From positions 1-49,089 of the forward strand of contig QCND01000002.1 of assembly GCA_003213355.1 (NCBI GenBank): a stretch of 49,089 bases of DNA, written 5' to 3'. The translations under genes were made by a program, and so were the position numbers. This DNA is from Prochlorococcus sp. AG-424-E20 (GTDB lineage: Bacteria; Cyanobacteriota; Cyanobacteriia; PCC-6307; Cyanobiaceae). A model generated the notes under the pieces. It was not told the DNA's origin. It did no database searches and saw only the letters and a program-made list of their open reading frames with translations. Positions 21,411-25,765 of this stretch are shown in pieces (within the stretch, counting starts at the first letter, position 1; each line of letters opens with the position of its first letter).

Positions 21411-21593
21411 TTAAGTACTGCTTTGTTGGTACTGGCCTTCTCAAGTGCTCTGATCTGACTCTCTTTCGATATGGGGAAGCTGTCGTGAAAGTGACGTATA
21501 CCAGCCTGTTCTGGAAACGAAGCTCCACTTTGTATCCCCCTCTGGTTCTTCCAGGTCGATGCTTCTTGGGCCTTACGGCAAAGCGGTACTTAC
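21411..21593 (+). ncRNA. ssrS: 6S RNA
   Basis: Higher-GC non-coding block just downstream of purK (known cyanobacterial location of 6S RNA); 13-bp closing stem AAGTACTGCTTTG (21413-21425) with CAAAGCGGTACTT (21579-21591), one G-U; about 180 nt. Confidence 0.8.
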
Positions 21594-22288: not shown

Positions 22289-22504
22289 TTACCCCTTTGG
22301 ATAAAGTCTGGCTATCTTCTGCTTTTGAGTTTCTTTTTCTAGGTTTTTTCTTTTCCGATCCTTGTATGAATCATCATCTTCATTAAGATTAAAAAATACA
22401 AAATAGAACATAATACCTGTGAAACTAATGCCAATTAATAGCACCCAAAAACCAATTAAACCTGTAGGAGATAAGTAGTTAATGTCAAAAGAACTATTAT
22501 TCAT
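22289..22504 (-). CDS. small single-TM hypothetical protein
   Basis: 71 aa; GLIGFWVLLIGISFTGIMFYFVFF TM helix with charged C-terminus. Confidence 0.65.
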   Translation of the reverse strand: MNNSSFDINYLSPTGLIGFWVLLIGISFTGIMFYFVFFNLNEDDDSYKDRKRKNLEKETQKQKIARLYPKG

Positions 22505-22692
22505 TTGTTTGCTTAAAAATTTTCAATTCTATATTATCCACAATAAATAGGAAACGTAGGAGAAGCTTCGTTATCCATGAATTTAATTTAAGGCTTTGAA
22601 CAAAAAAGATTTATTTTCTTTTAATAAGAGTTTTTACGCATTAACACATAGTAAAAATTAATTAAGATAGTAGTTATTGTTTTTATGATGAA

Positions 22693-22827
22693 ATGGAAGG
22701 AACTCATAACTATGCTATGAACCTTATTGTTCCACTAATGGGAATTGCTCCGTTGCTAATGCTCTTTGTATTGAAAGGAGAGAAAAAATCAAAGGCTGCA
22801 AAGAGTTGGACAAGATCAACTAACTAG
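22693..22827 (+). CDS. small putative membrane protein (44 aa, not in supplied ORF track)
   Basis: MEGTHNYAMNLIVPLMGIAPLLMLFVLKGEKKSKAAKSWTRSTN*; one TM helix then a basic tail. Confidence 0.5.
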   Translation: MEGTHNYAMNLIVPLMGIAPLLMLFVLKGEKKSKAAKSWTRSTN

Positions 22828-23173
22828 ATATAAAAAGAATAAGACTTCACTTTTATTTTATCTCATAATAAATTTATAAAAAAATTAATTACGAAAAACT
22901 GTTTATAGGTAAATTTATATGTTTATTAAAATTTAATTTGTAACCTAAATATATTTTATCTTTAAGTACTTATTGATTTTTAATATTTTTTGATTGTGAA
23001 ACTTTTAATTGATCAGAAATCTTGAAAATAATAAGTAGATGAGTTAGTGATAGCTTTAAGATAGGTTTGTTCGGTTTTCACACACAGTATTGAATTCTTT
23101 TCGCTACTGTGTACAAATGTTTTTTTGAAAAAGAATTTAATCAACTCGATTAATTCTACACCTGTATTTACCG

Positions 23174-23296
23174 ATGCATAAAACCGAAACGCAGCAATTC
23201 GCTAAATTTTTTCTTAAAGATCTAAAAATTAAAAACACTAATTACAATAAAGAAAAGCCTTATAATGATAAGGTGAACTTATCTTCGTCTAGTTGA
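23174..23296 (+). CDS. possible 40-aa small ORF
   Basis: MHKTETQQFAKFFLKDLKIKNTNYNKEKPYNDKVNLSSSS*; ATG start, no independent support. Confidence 0.25.
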   Translation: MHKTETQQFAKFFLKDLKIKNTNYNKEKPYNDKVNLSSSS

Positions 23297-23773
23297 GTAA
23301 TCCTCCTTTATAGTTTTTTCTTTAGGGTCAATTGAGCATATTTATAAATTTTTTATATTAGAATTTTGATCTAATACAACATAAGATTCATGATTGCTAT
23401 GAATATGTATTGAATACAAAAGTTTTCTCATTCAACTTAAAGAAGCTTAAATAAATATAATGAAATTCAAGGCATGCGAAATATAGCTTGTTTTAATTTA
23501 GGGATATGAATAAATCTTTTCAAAGAAAAACTTCTCTTAAGGGGAGTTCCCGTGGAGAGCTGTCTTCCTTTGATATGGAAAGGATTCTTTAACTTCTTAC
23601 TATAAAGGATTTAACTAAATGTCTATCAGCATGTGACCAAAAGAATAACCTTTACAGATACTACTTTAATTTTTAAGACCATAGATAAGTGAATTTACCT
23701 AAAAAAGTTTTGTTAATTAATCAATGAATTTAATCATTTAATAGTATGTTTGAATACTACTAAAATTAAACAT

Positions 23774-23920
23774 ATGAAAACCGCACAAGATAGATATTTT
23801 GAATGTTTAGAAGTTTGTATTGAAGATGAGCAGGGAAAATCCTGTCGCCAAGTATGTGCGCCTATATTAAATGATGATCCTTCTGATCATCCTACAGTTC
23901 CAATAATTAAAAACCATTAA
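23774..23920 (+). CDS. small twin-CX3C protein (48 aa, not in supplied ORF track)
   Basis: MKTAQDRYFECLEVCIEDEQGKSCRQVCAPILNDDPSDHPTVPIIKNH*; C11-X3-C15-X8-C24-X3-C28. Confidence 0.6.
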   Translation: MKTAQDRYFECLEVCIEDEQGKSCRQVCAPILNDDPSDHPTVPIIKNH

Positions 23921-24102
23921 TTATTGAAACGGAGCATTTGAAATCTAAATATTTAAGAGTCAATTTTCACTCAAGTAGTAATTATAAATTTGAATATTCA
24001 ATTTTATAATTACTATTACTTTAGAAGTCAATGGCCACTTTAATAATTGGGAGTTCTTTAAAGTTAAGAAATTAGCTAGGATATCCGAAATTTTACATAA
24101 TC

Positions 24103-24261
24103 ATGGATACTCCTATCACGCACATTAATTTATTCAATGCAATGCTTGCTCTTTATGTGATTGGTTATCAAATATCTATATGCTCAGATTGGAGTTGGAT
24201 CCCAATGAATAAAGAGGATTATCAACTTCCTTATCAAGATAAATGGAGTCGAACTACTTAG
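24103..24261 (+). CDS. small hypothetical protein (52 aa, not in supplied ORF track)
   Basis: MDTPITHINLFNAMLALYVIGYQISICSDWSWIPMNKEDYQLPYQDKWSRTT*. Confidence 0.5.
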   Translation: MDTPITHINLFNAMLALYVIGYQISICSDWSWIPMNKEDYQLPYQDKWSRTT

Positions 24262-24446
24262 ATACATTATTAATTTTCAACAATGTAGGTATAAATACAA
24301 AGTCAAAATATTTGTTAATCATGCTTAGTAAACATATATCAGATATTTGAATATTGAATATGTTCCAAAATTATTTAAATGTACTTATTATTCCATAAGT
24401 AGACTAAATAATTTTAAATTTTTAAATCTAGTTTTGGCAGTTAAAA

Positions 24447-24623
24447 TTATATACTTTGAACGACATGAAATAAACCAAATGAATAACCACCAATAAGTAT
24501 CCAGCCCAAAATTGCTGAAATTATTGTAGATCTTCTGTTGTGTCTTCTTATTGCATTTTCGATCATTTCATTCACATCTTCTCTGTTTATTAGATTTGTT
24601 GATTTTGGATTTGTTGAAGTCAT
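24447..24623 (-). CDS. small single-TM protein (58 aa, not in supplied ORF track)
   Basis: MTSTNPKSTNLINREDVNEMIENAIRRHNRRSTIISAILGWILIGGYSFGLFHVVQSI*; charged helix then C-terminal TM. Confidence 0.6.
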   Translation of the reverse strand: MTSTNPKSTNLINREDVNEMIENAIRRHNRRSTIISAILGWILIGGYSFGLFHVVQSI

Positions 24624-25309
24624 TTGTTTTTATGAAGATTTGATGTTTGAGATTTAATAATCTCTTTTAAACAAATTCAATTTGAGATAGAAAGTGCTTA
24701 TGAAGTAGTGGATATCTATCTTTGTAGTTATCCTTGATCGAAGCTATAAATGAATCGCTGAAGGACAAAAGACCAATCCATGTGTAAACAATTGTTAACA
24801 CTATAGTGGATTTTCTTAAGAGTTGTGTAGGTAAAATCACTTTAATCTTTATTCAGGTCAATCTAATCACCAATTAAACTTGAGTAGAAATCTGGGATGC
24901 TTAAAATTACTGTTTTGCTAAAAACTGTGGTGCTACTTCCTTGTTTTTTTGAAGATTTATCTAAAGTTCAAATTTTTGCGATCGAATTTATTGTTTTACT
25001 ATTAATTAATCATGCTAGTAACTTCTTCTCCGCTGCAAACATCTGCCTCAGAGTTTGAAATCTAAGACTTTAAAAAAAAATTATTGCTAAAGCATCCCTA
25101 ATAGATATAGATCAGCAAATAGTAAAGCTAGAGTTTGATTTGGCGACATCTTAGTCTGTTTGTGACATGAACAGAACTAATCAGATCCGATCAAAGGTCA
25201 GATGAAAATAATGGGGTTTCAATATTAAGAGGCGATATATAATTTTTATTTTATTTCCTATTTGAGTTTTCATCCTAAGTAAAGTTTATTTTAGAAGAAT
25301 ACGTAAACG

Positions 25310-25765
25310 TTATGTATTCTTTTCGTTATTATCTGATTCATTCTTTTCTTGAAGCTTTCTTGTTAGAAAAGAATATGAAGCTTGATGTTTTTCCTTCCAT
25401 TCTTTATGTTCTTTTATCTGATCTTTTAACTTTTTTAAACTTTCTTTTTCTTCTGGATAAAACCTTTCTAAGTATTCAGGACTTAAATTTATATTACCTT
25501 CAAATTCATAAACCATTTCCTCAAAAGATTCACATAAGCCAAGGATATCTGCCATAAAATCTTCAAATTCATCAATATTTAATTCTTGAAGAACCTTTCT
25601 TAACTTACTTTGACTCGTTTTCTCTGGCGCCCATTCCTTTTTTAAAACGTGAAGAAGATTAAGCTGGCCAATCCTATCTATAAGATCCCACTTGGAGGCA
25701 TCATCGGCTGAGTAAAAATAGGAACCATCACCGGATTGATAAAACTTTCCTCTTTCTTTATCCAT
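25310..25765 (-). CDS. hypothetical charged helical protein
   Basis: 151-aa ORF with ATG start and soluble, helix-rich composition. Confidence 0.65.
   Translation of the reverse strand: MDKERGKFYQSGDGSYFYSADDASKWDLIDRIGQLNLLHVLKKEWAPEKTSQSKLRKVLQELNIDEFEDFMADILGLCESFEEMVYEFEGNINLSPEYLERFYPEEKESLKKLKDQIKEHKEWKEKHQASYSFLTRKLQEKNESDNNEKNT

Follow-up and report, generated by a model that had tools for sequence, protein, structure and literature searches.

The window analyzed here is a stretch of 49,089 nt from Prochlorococcus sp. AG-424-E20 (contig QCND01000002.1). A preliminary description of this DNA had pointed to a small ORF with paired cysteines in a region of low coding density, and the segment from 22504 to 25310 indeed contains just four ORFs, all of them short and conserved. 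Translation of positions 23774 to 23920 of the forward strand yielded MKTAQDRYFECLEVCIEDEQGKSCRQVCAPILNDDPSDHPTVPIIKNH, followed by a stop codon. This 48-aa product matches exactly the protein described before: its cysteines, at positions 11, 15, 24, and 28, form a CX3C-X8-CX3C pattern, which was unique to this ORF among the 266 mechanically listed ORFs of 30 to 120 aa in the window (0.025 twin-CX3C ORFs expected from shuffling within these ORFs). The features of the locus are as follows:

21500 to 21593, forward strand: probable 6S RNA gene.
22289 to 22504, reverse strand: small membrane protein of 71 aa ('...RKRK..KIARLYPK'), with a homolog near twin-CX3C copies elsewhere.
23506 to 23676, forward strand: remnant of a partner gene (RKTTLKW/GEL/CX3C protein) with an in-frame TAA at 23590-23592.
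23685 to 23722, forward strand: near-invariant 38-nt element ATAAGTGNATTTACCTAAARAAGTTTTGTTAATTTATC between the partner end and the twin-CX3C gene.
23744 to 23757, forward strand: GTAN8TAC palindrome, NtcA-box-like, overlapping a possible -10 element (TAGTAT).
23774 to 23920, forward strand: twin-CX3C microprotein of 48 aa (CX3C-X8-CX3C, tail NDDPxDHPTVP), supported by orthologs, dN/dS, and conservation of the cysteines and the ATG.
24447 to 24623, reverse strand: small membrane protein of 58 aa of the cyanophage family PHROG 1096 (E = 3e-15).

The mechanical ORF list starts the gene at an upstream TTG, giving a 56-aa version. The ATG was kept in every ortholog and the in-frame extension 5' of it was not conserved, showing that 48 aa is the right length. 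Orthologs, which come from Prochlorococcus single-cell genomes among others, were detected in 28 of 36 other same-genus genomes of the first sample (the window's own copy not counted), with identities of 87 to 98%. All same-genus genomes that are at least 90% complete carry the gene; those without it are 51 to 87% complete. The four cysteines, whose conservation had been proposed as a check, were invariant in 33/33 orthologs. At all four cysteine codons, TGT and TGC were exchanged synonymously among these orthologs and the residue was never altered. For the 33 distinct ortholog sequences, dN/dS was about 0.03 at a dS of about 0.86, far below the value near 1 that the preliminary description had named as evidence against its reading; pN/pS was 0.054, and the variable sites were distributed over the three codon positions as 12/4/39 of 44. 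Positions 23774 to 23920 are a protein-coding gene under strong purifying selection, not a chance ORF.

Weak matches in other genera were assembled into an alignment (A1), whose profile was used for counting. The resulting family, of proteins of ~45 to 65 aa with the pattern xxYFECxxxC-X(6-10)-CxxxC, was defined here from alignments A1 and A3 by a Y-[FY]-x-C-x3-C-X(6-10)-C-x3-C core in a protein of ~45 to 110 aa. The window protein has this core and this length and is a divergent member. With the A1 profile, the family was detected in 386 of 400 Prochlorococcaceae genomes and in 250 of the 251 high-quality ones, usually in one to four copies per genome (range, 1 to 5). When genomes were drawn from the whole class, 28 of the 29 matching ones were Prochlorococcaceae, and the remaining one had a weak match with an internal stop. 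As far as this draw indicates, other cyanobacteria essentially lack the family. Among the models of Pfam and NCBIfam, none scored above its cut-off for the family proteins searched, and nothing on the family was found in literature searches. The window protein is not an isolated oddity. It belongs to a previously unnamed pan-picocyanobacterial and cyanophage family that has a genomic partner and is now traced through marine Prochlorococcus and Synechococcus and many of their viruses.

The family core reads D-x-[YF]-[FY]-E-C-x3-C, loop, C-x3-C. The loop varies in length (mostly 8 residues in Prochlorococcus, 6 in the phage family GC363 and in Synechococcus) and both CX3C pairs are retained. In 48 host and phage sequences with a mean column identity of 20%, Y8, C11, C15, C24, and C28 were invariant. 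Judged from these alignments, what stays constant is Y-F/Y-x-C-x3-C followed by a short acidic loop and C-x3-C. Subfamily I (DAIDxYFEC...EVHLK), subfamily II (...MERHLKxxYF), subfamily III (that of the window), subfamily IV (HL), and Synechococcus types were distinguished. A three-cysteine paralog was found in three same-genus genomes (for example, CLENCHSHEQHETPKKIC and similar). Three-cysteine variants at L078, L079, and L080 (Prochlorococcus) and at L124:2337-2552, reverse strand (phage), have proline in place of the third cysteine (ETPK or HTPK) and a histidine in the loop. Clues from the gene neighborhood (psbA, hli, aroB, and purK) were inconsistent between clades.

The partner is a small cysteine protein of the pattern QRKTTLKWxxxGELxxxDxxRILxxLxxxxLTxCxLxCD, with a CX3C at its own end. 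In most Prochlorococcus clades, another twin-CX3C copy is coupled to such an RKTTLKW protein, and in many clades the RKTTLKW gene lies directly downstream of subfamily I genes. Among the 77 partner matches checked, 31 were on the same strand as a twin-CX3C gene and downstream of it, with gaps of -24 to 14 nt (often overlapping) and a single exception of 139 nt; two fusions were also found. A longer form of the partner adds a GGSI-C...C..C domain, and in four Synechococcus-like genomes (G088, G129, G155, and G176) the GGSI domain and the twin-CX3C core are fused in one ORF. Adjacency together with fusion is good evidence, at the level of genome organization, that the twin-CX3C and partner modules act together. 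A GGSI/GGTI-C..GR-FR-CS..C..C domain shares one ORF with a twin-CX3C core at L305, L306, L307, and L308; it had no Pfam match above cut-off and possibly resembles a zinc-binding module. For the partner, matches to an ArsR-like HTH (E = 0.02 and 0.086) were not supported by its model, which was mixed beta/alpha and of low confidence.

At the locus studied here, the partner lies upstream of the window gene in same-genus genomes. It is an intact 59-aa ORF in about 19 orthologs and has decayed in about 14 of 33, including the window and G032. The lesions are differing stops and frameshifts, and decay apparently occurred independently. Judging by these genomes, the window subfamily does not need the partner in cis and has repeatedly lost it there, with partner genes still present at other sites of these genomes. 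The downstream twin-CX3C gene is intact in all 33 orthologs despite partner decay.

The 38-nt element between the two genes has a mean pairwise identity of 95%; the corresponding values are 56% for fourfold sites and 51% for the 38 nt directly preceding the ATG. Each genome has a single copy of the element, and the core of the element was found with three mismatches in another genus (G086). Because it is kept where the partner is dead, the element appears to serve the twin-CX3C gene, of which it is a probable activator or promoter site. The GTAN8TAC palindrome is present at about -30 in 25 of 34 orthologs, compared to 0.56 expected from shuffled sequences. In this subfamily it is at most a candidate NtcA site, since it overlaps the likely -10 element and is too near the start for a classical activated promoter. 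In the other subfamilies, the palindrome was not clearly enriched (8 of 117, versus 4.9 expected), and regulation of the whole family by NtcA was thus rejected.

Two small membrane protein genes of the locus recur near other family members. Homologs of the PHROG 1096 type are found close to twin-CX3C genes in phage S-SSM7 and in the phage contigs L124 and L134. Homologs of the KIARLYPK protein were found 0.9 kb from a subfamily II copy (G069) and 1.5 kb from a three-cysteine paralog (G033); with the window, this gene is near copies of three subfamilies. It is single-copy and is not linked to twin-CX3C genes in HL genomes. Farther upstream, positions 21500 to 21593 matched 6S RNA below the threshold (E = 0.0026), the match being truncated where the search began; this probable 6S RNA gene is just downstream of a purK-like gene.

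Relatives in isolate phages were detected only with profiles. The window protein weakly matched PHROG 665 (E = 0.0012, profile positions 30 to 55 of 56). PHROG 665 corresponds to T4-GC363, which is present in P-SSM2, P-SSM4, P-SSM7, P-RSM4, Syn9, and S-SSM7 (members include Syn9 gp134, PSSM4_045.1, and PSSM7_131, annotated as function unknown) and on viral contigs, at least 579 stretches of which carry it. In Syn9, P-SSM7, and P-RSM4, the phage gene is located between gp23 and gp3; in P-SSM2, P-SSM4, and S-SSM7, it is elsewhere. Both groups have a Y-[YF]-x-C-x3-C-X(6-9)-C-x3-C core, and the profile matches, weak as they were, were reciprocal. GC363 proteins have an N-terminal MHNxxSxNQMA segment and mostly a 6-residue loop and end right after the second CX3C, whereas the window protein begins directly at the core, lacks the MHNxxSxNQ N-terminus, and has a Pro/Asp-rich tail. 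By this comparison, the window protein is related to PHROG 665/T4-GC363 and is not a member of it. When phage isolates were searched by tblastn, no credible match was obtained for the window protein, for one window-type protein from phages, or for two members from hosts, and a search with the coiled-coil-fused phage type gave only short matches outside the cysteine core.

Closer relatives were found in viral contigs, where a search with the single window sequence gave no match and a search with the alignment gave 11 loci. Window-type phage proteins are 60% (L124) and 51 to 52% (L125 to L127) identical to the window protein, and their genes lie near nrdA, purN, purC, ferredoxin, and glutaredoxin (gene names read from sequence). 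Other viral contigs carry a coiled-coil-fused type, and one has a host-type copy together with psbA. Several twin-CX3C versions thus exist in phages, two of them on one contig. At L129 to L133, a 94-aa protein of T4-like phages consists of a coiled-coil segment (PHROG 23214-like) fused to the twin-CX3C core, and its gene directly follows purN wherever purN is in view. In a tree of 36 columns, window-type host proteins grouped with phage ones (support, 100/99), and the window type is the nearest to the versions of the family found in phages. The first tree nested host copies among phage copies. An alternative tree with the hosts together was not rejected (p-AU 0.32), and a direction of transfer from phage to host is therefore not claimed.

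AlphaFold, run with the 48-sequence alignment, predicted helices at residues 4 to 14, 22 to 28, and 30 to 33 and a flexible tail (pLDDT, 74.7; pTM, 0.49). With moderate confidence, the model is the two-helix hairpin that the preliminary description had proposed. In a PDB profile search, walnut vicilin alpha-hairpinins came first (7lvf, E = 0.008, 19 bits), with Tim8 and EcAMP1 lower. The sole Foldseek match was 7uv4, a vicilin leader hairpinin (E = 8.9, not significant). Sequence and fold searches thus both placed plant alpha-hairpinins first, neither with clear significance. These vicilin-buried and related peptides (Jug r 2, Pis v 3, and EcAMP1) share with the window protein the CX3C-Xn-CX3C pattern and, going by the model, the helix-loop-helix arrangement. 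However, they are secreted eukaryotic defense or seed peptides, and inspection by eye revealed no hydrophobic N-terminus, signal segment, or other sign of export in the window protein. The likeness is probably convergence on a cysteine-clamped helical hairpin.

The preliminary description had also invoked small Tims and CHCH proteins, and here, in contrast to the gene, its cysteines, and the hairpin, no support was obtained for kinship. Small Tims (Tim8/9/10/13) likewise close a helical hairpin with twin CX3C motifs, which the window protein has, but small Tims and CHCH proteins are mitochondrial intermembrane-space chaperones with longer spacing between the pairs. Pfam gave the window protein no match, PF02953 (zf-Tim10_DDP) included; one paralog alone matched PF02953, partially and below threshold (E = 0.059, 13.3 bits versus a cut-off of 22.3), and the profile match to Tim8 had an E value of 0.069. 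The spacing in the window protein is CX3C instead of the two CX9C motifs of CHCH proteins. The likeness to small Tims thus concerns the pattern and probably the fold, not membership. Among cyanobacterial proteins, CP12 is also tiny, has two cysteine pairs, and is carried by cyanophages (PMC7760959), but its pairs are at the two ends with other spacing and another core, and the window protein, with its CX3C pairs, had no CP12 match in Pfam. NblD/NsiR6 is another small cyanobacterial protein with two conserved cysteine pairs (PMC5126843). It differs in its first pair, CPVC (CX2C), and in its phylum-wide distribution; the window protein lacks such a pair, and the twin-CX3C family is limited to Prochlorococcaceae.

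We tentatively infer, at somewhat below even probability, that the window protein functions as a thiol- or disulfide-controlled hairpin adaptor or regulator. Three points favor this reading: the geometry, which resembles that of hairpinins; the redox genes that neighbor the family in phages; and the precedent of CP12 in cyanophages (PMC7760959). Two short antiparallel helices (residues 4 to 14 and 22 to 33) would bring the pairs Cys11/15 and Cys24/28, each one helical turn apart, into positions where they can face each other; such a cysteine geometry would follow from the helix positions in the moderately confident AlphaFold model. Closure of the hairpin could come from one bound metal or from a pair of disulfides, 11-28 and 15-24, the arrangement of plant alpha-hairpinins. 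It would be reduced and loose in the light and disulfide-closed when the cell is oxidized or in the dark. The closed form would then be able to hold a target protein by means of its exposed helix faces and of the tail, which is specific to the subfamily (here NDDPxDHPTVP). The likeliest direct partners would be the RKTTLKW protein and the GGSI-C domain, which are co-translated with or fused to other family copies. T4-like phages carry twin-CX3C versions of their own, as they do of the redox-switch microprotein CP12.

The three-cysteine variants (L078 to L080 and the phage copy) lose only Cys3 and keep Cys2. They fit paired disulfides poorly and would be read more easily as a metal site with histidine. 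This brings in the main rival, which is possible but rather unlikely: a small metal-binding protein in which four cysteines (or three and a histidine) hold Zn, Cu, or Fe-S between the helices, for metal buffering, metallochaperoning, or as a structural mini-zinc-finger. The invariance of all four cysteines would suit it, as would the cysteine-rich partner modules and the loop histidine of paralogs of the CLENCHSHEQHETPKKIC type and of the phage copy, which lack Cys3. However, the loop histidine is also present in four-cysteine members, so that the swap comes down to one or two events. In addition, no known metal-binding family was matched, and the best analogues, weak as they are, are disulfide hairpins.

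The closeness of the window subfamily to phage versions, the several versions in phages (two on one contig), and the decay of the partner in about 14 of the 33 orthologs, through lesions that differ, could also point to a phage-host conflict gene. The phage protein would then be an effector or inhibitor and the host copy a domesticated decoy or antidote, and the repeated loss of the RKTTLKW partner would look like a two-gene module losing one of its halves. We regard this as unlikely: the gene is near-universal in hosts and has a very low dN/dS, unlike arms-race genes; other loci of these genomes still carry partner genes; and the tree tests leave the direction of transfer unfixed.

Many tiny cyanobacterial proteins are photosystem subunits, and the window protein might similarly have a structural place in a larger photosynthetic, ribosomal, or virion complex, with the hairpin stabilizing the peptide and no switching. 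The phage gene between gp23 and gp3 in Syn9, P-SSM7, and P-RSM4 is compatible with such a role, which is nevertheless improbable given its other location in P-SSM2, P-SSM4, and S-SSM7, the absence of an apparent transmembrane segment in the window protein, and the several divergent copies per genome, which suit specialized adaptors better than one stoichiometric subunit. Finally, although the DNA immediately upstream includes 38 nt of strongly conserved noncoding sequence, a locus conserved solely as a small RNA or regulatory element, with no protein, is already contradicted and has a negligible probability, given the codon-position variation (12/4/39), the pN/pS of 0.054, the TGT/TGC exchange at four cysteines, the protein-level homology reaching phages, and the lack of a credible Rfam RNA at the ORF.

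Photosynthesis in the ocean is dominated by Prochlorococcus and marine Synechococcus, cells with very few regulators. Against this background, it is a striking gap that a family carried by 250 of the 251 high-quality genomes, often in several copies, and shared with phages matches no entry of Pfam or NCBIfam. A broader picture, which we consider fairly unlikely in its entirety, is that of a lineage-specific, thiol- or metal-controlled signaling module of picocyanobacteria. Hairpin adaptors would be paired with cysteine-containing RKTTLKW and GGSI proteins, T4-like cyanophages would have copied and diversified them to steer infected cells, and low-light Prochlorococcus would have kept one phage-type version, as a gene that looks essential and has a conserved promoter of its own. 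Helical hairpins with a twin CX3C, known elsewhere from eukaryotes, also have a bacterial example in this family. Should these hairpins act as redox or metal switches, they would offer the minimal cells and their viruses a compact, testable response to light and dark or to oxidative state. The family is a near-universal, uncharacterized component of the ocean's most abundant photosynthetic cells and is open to experiment.
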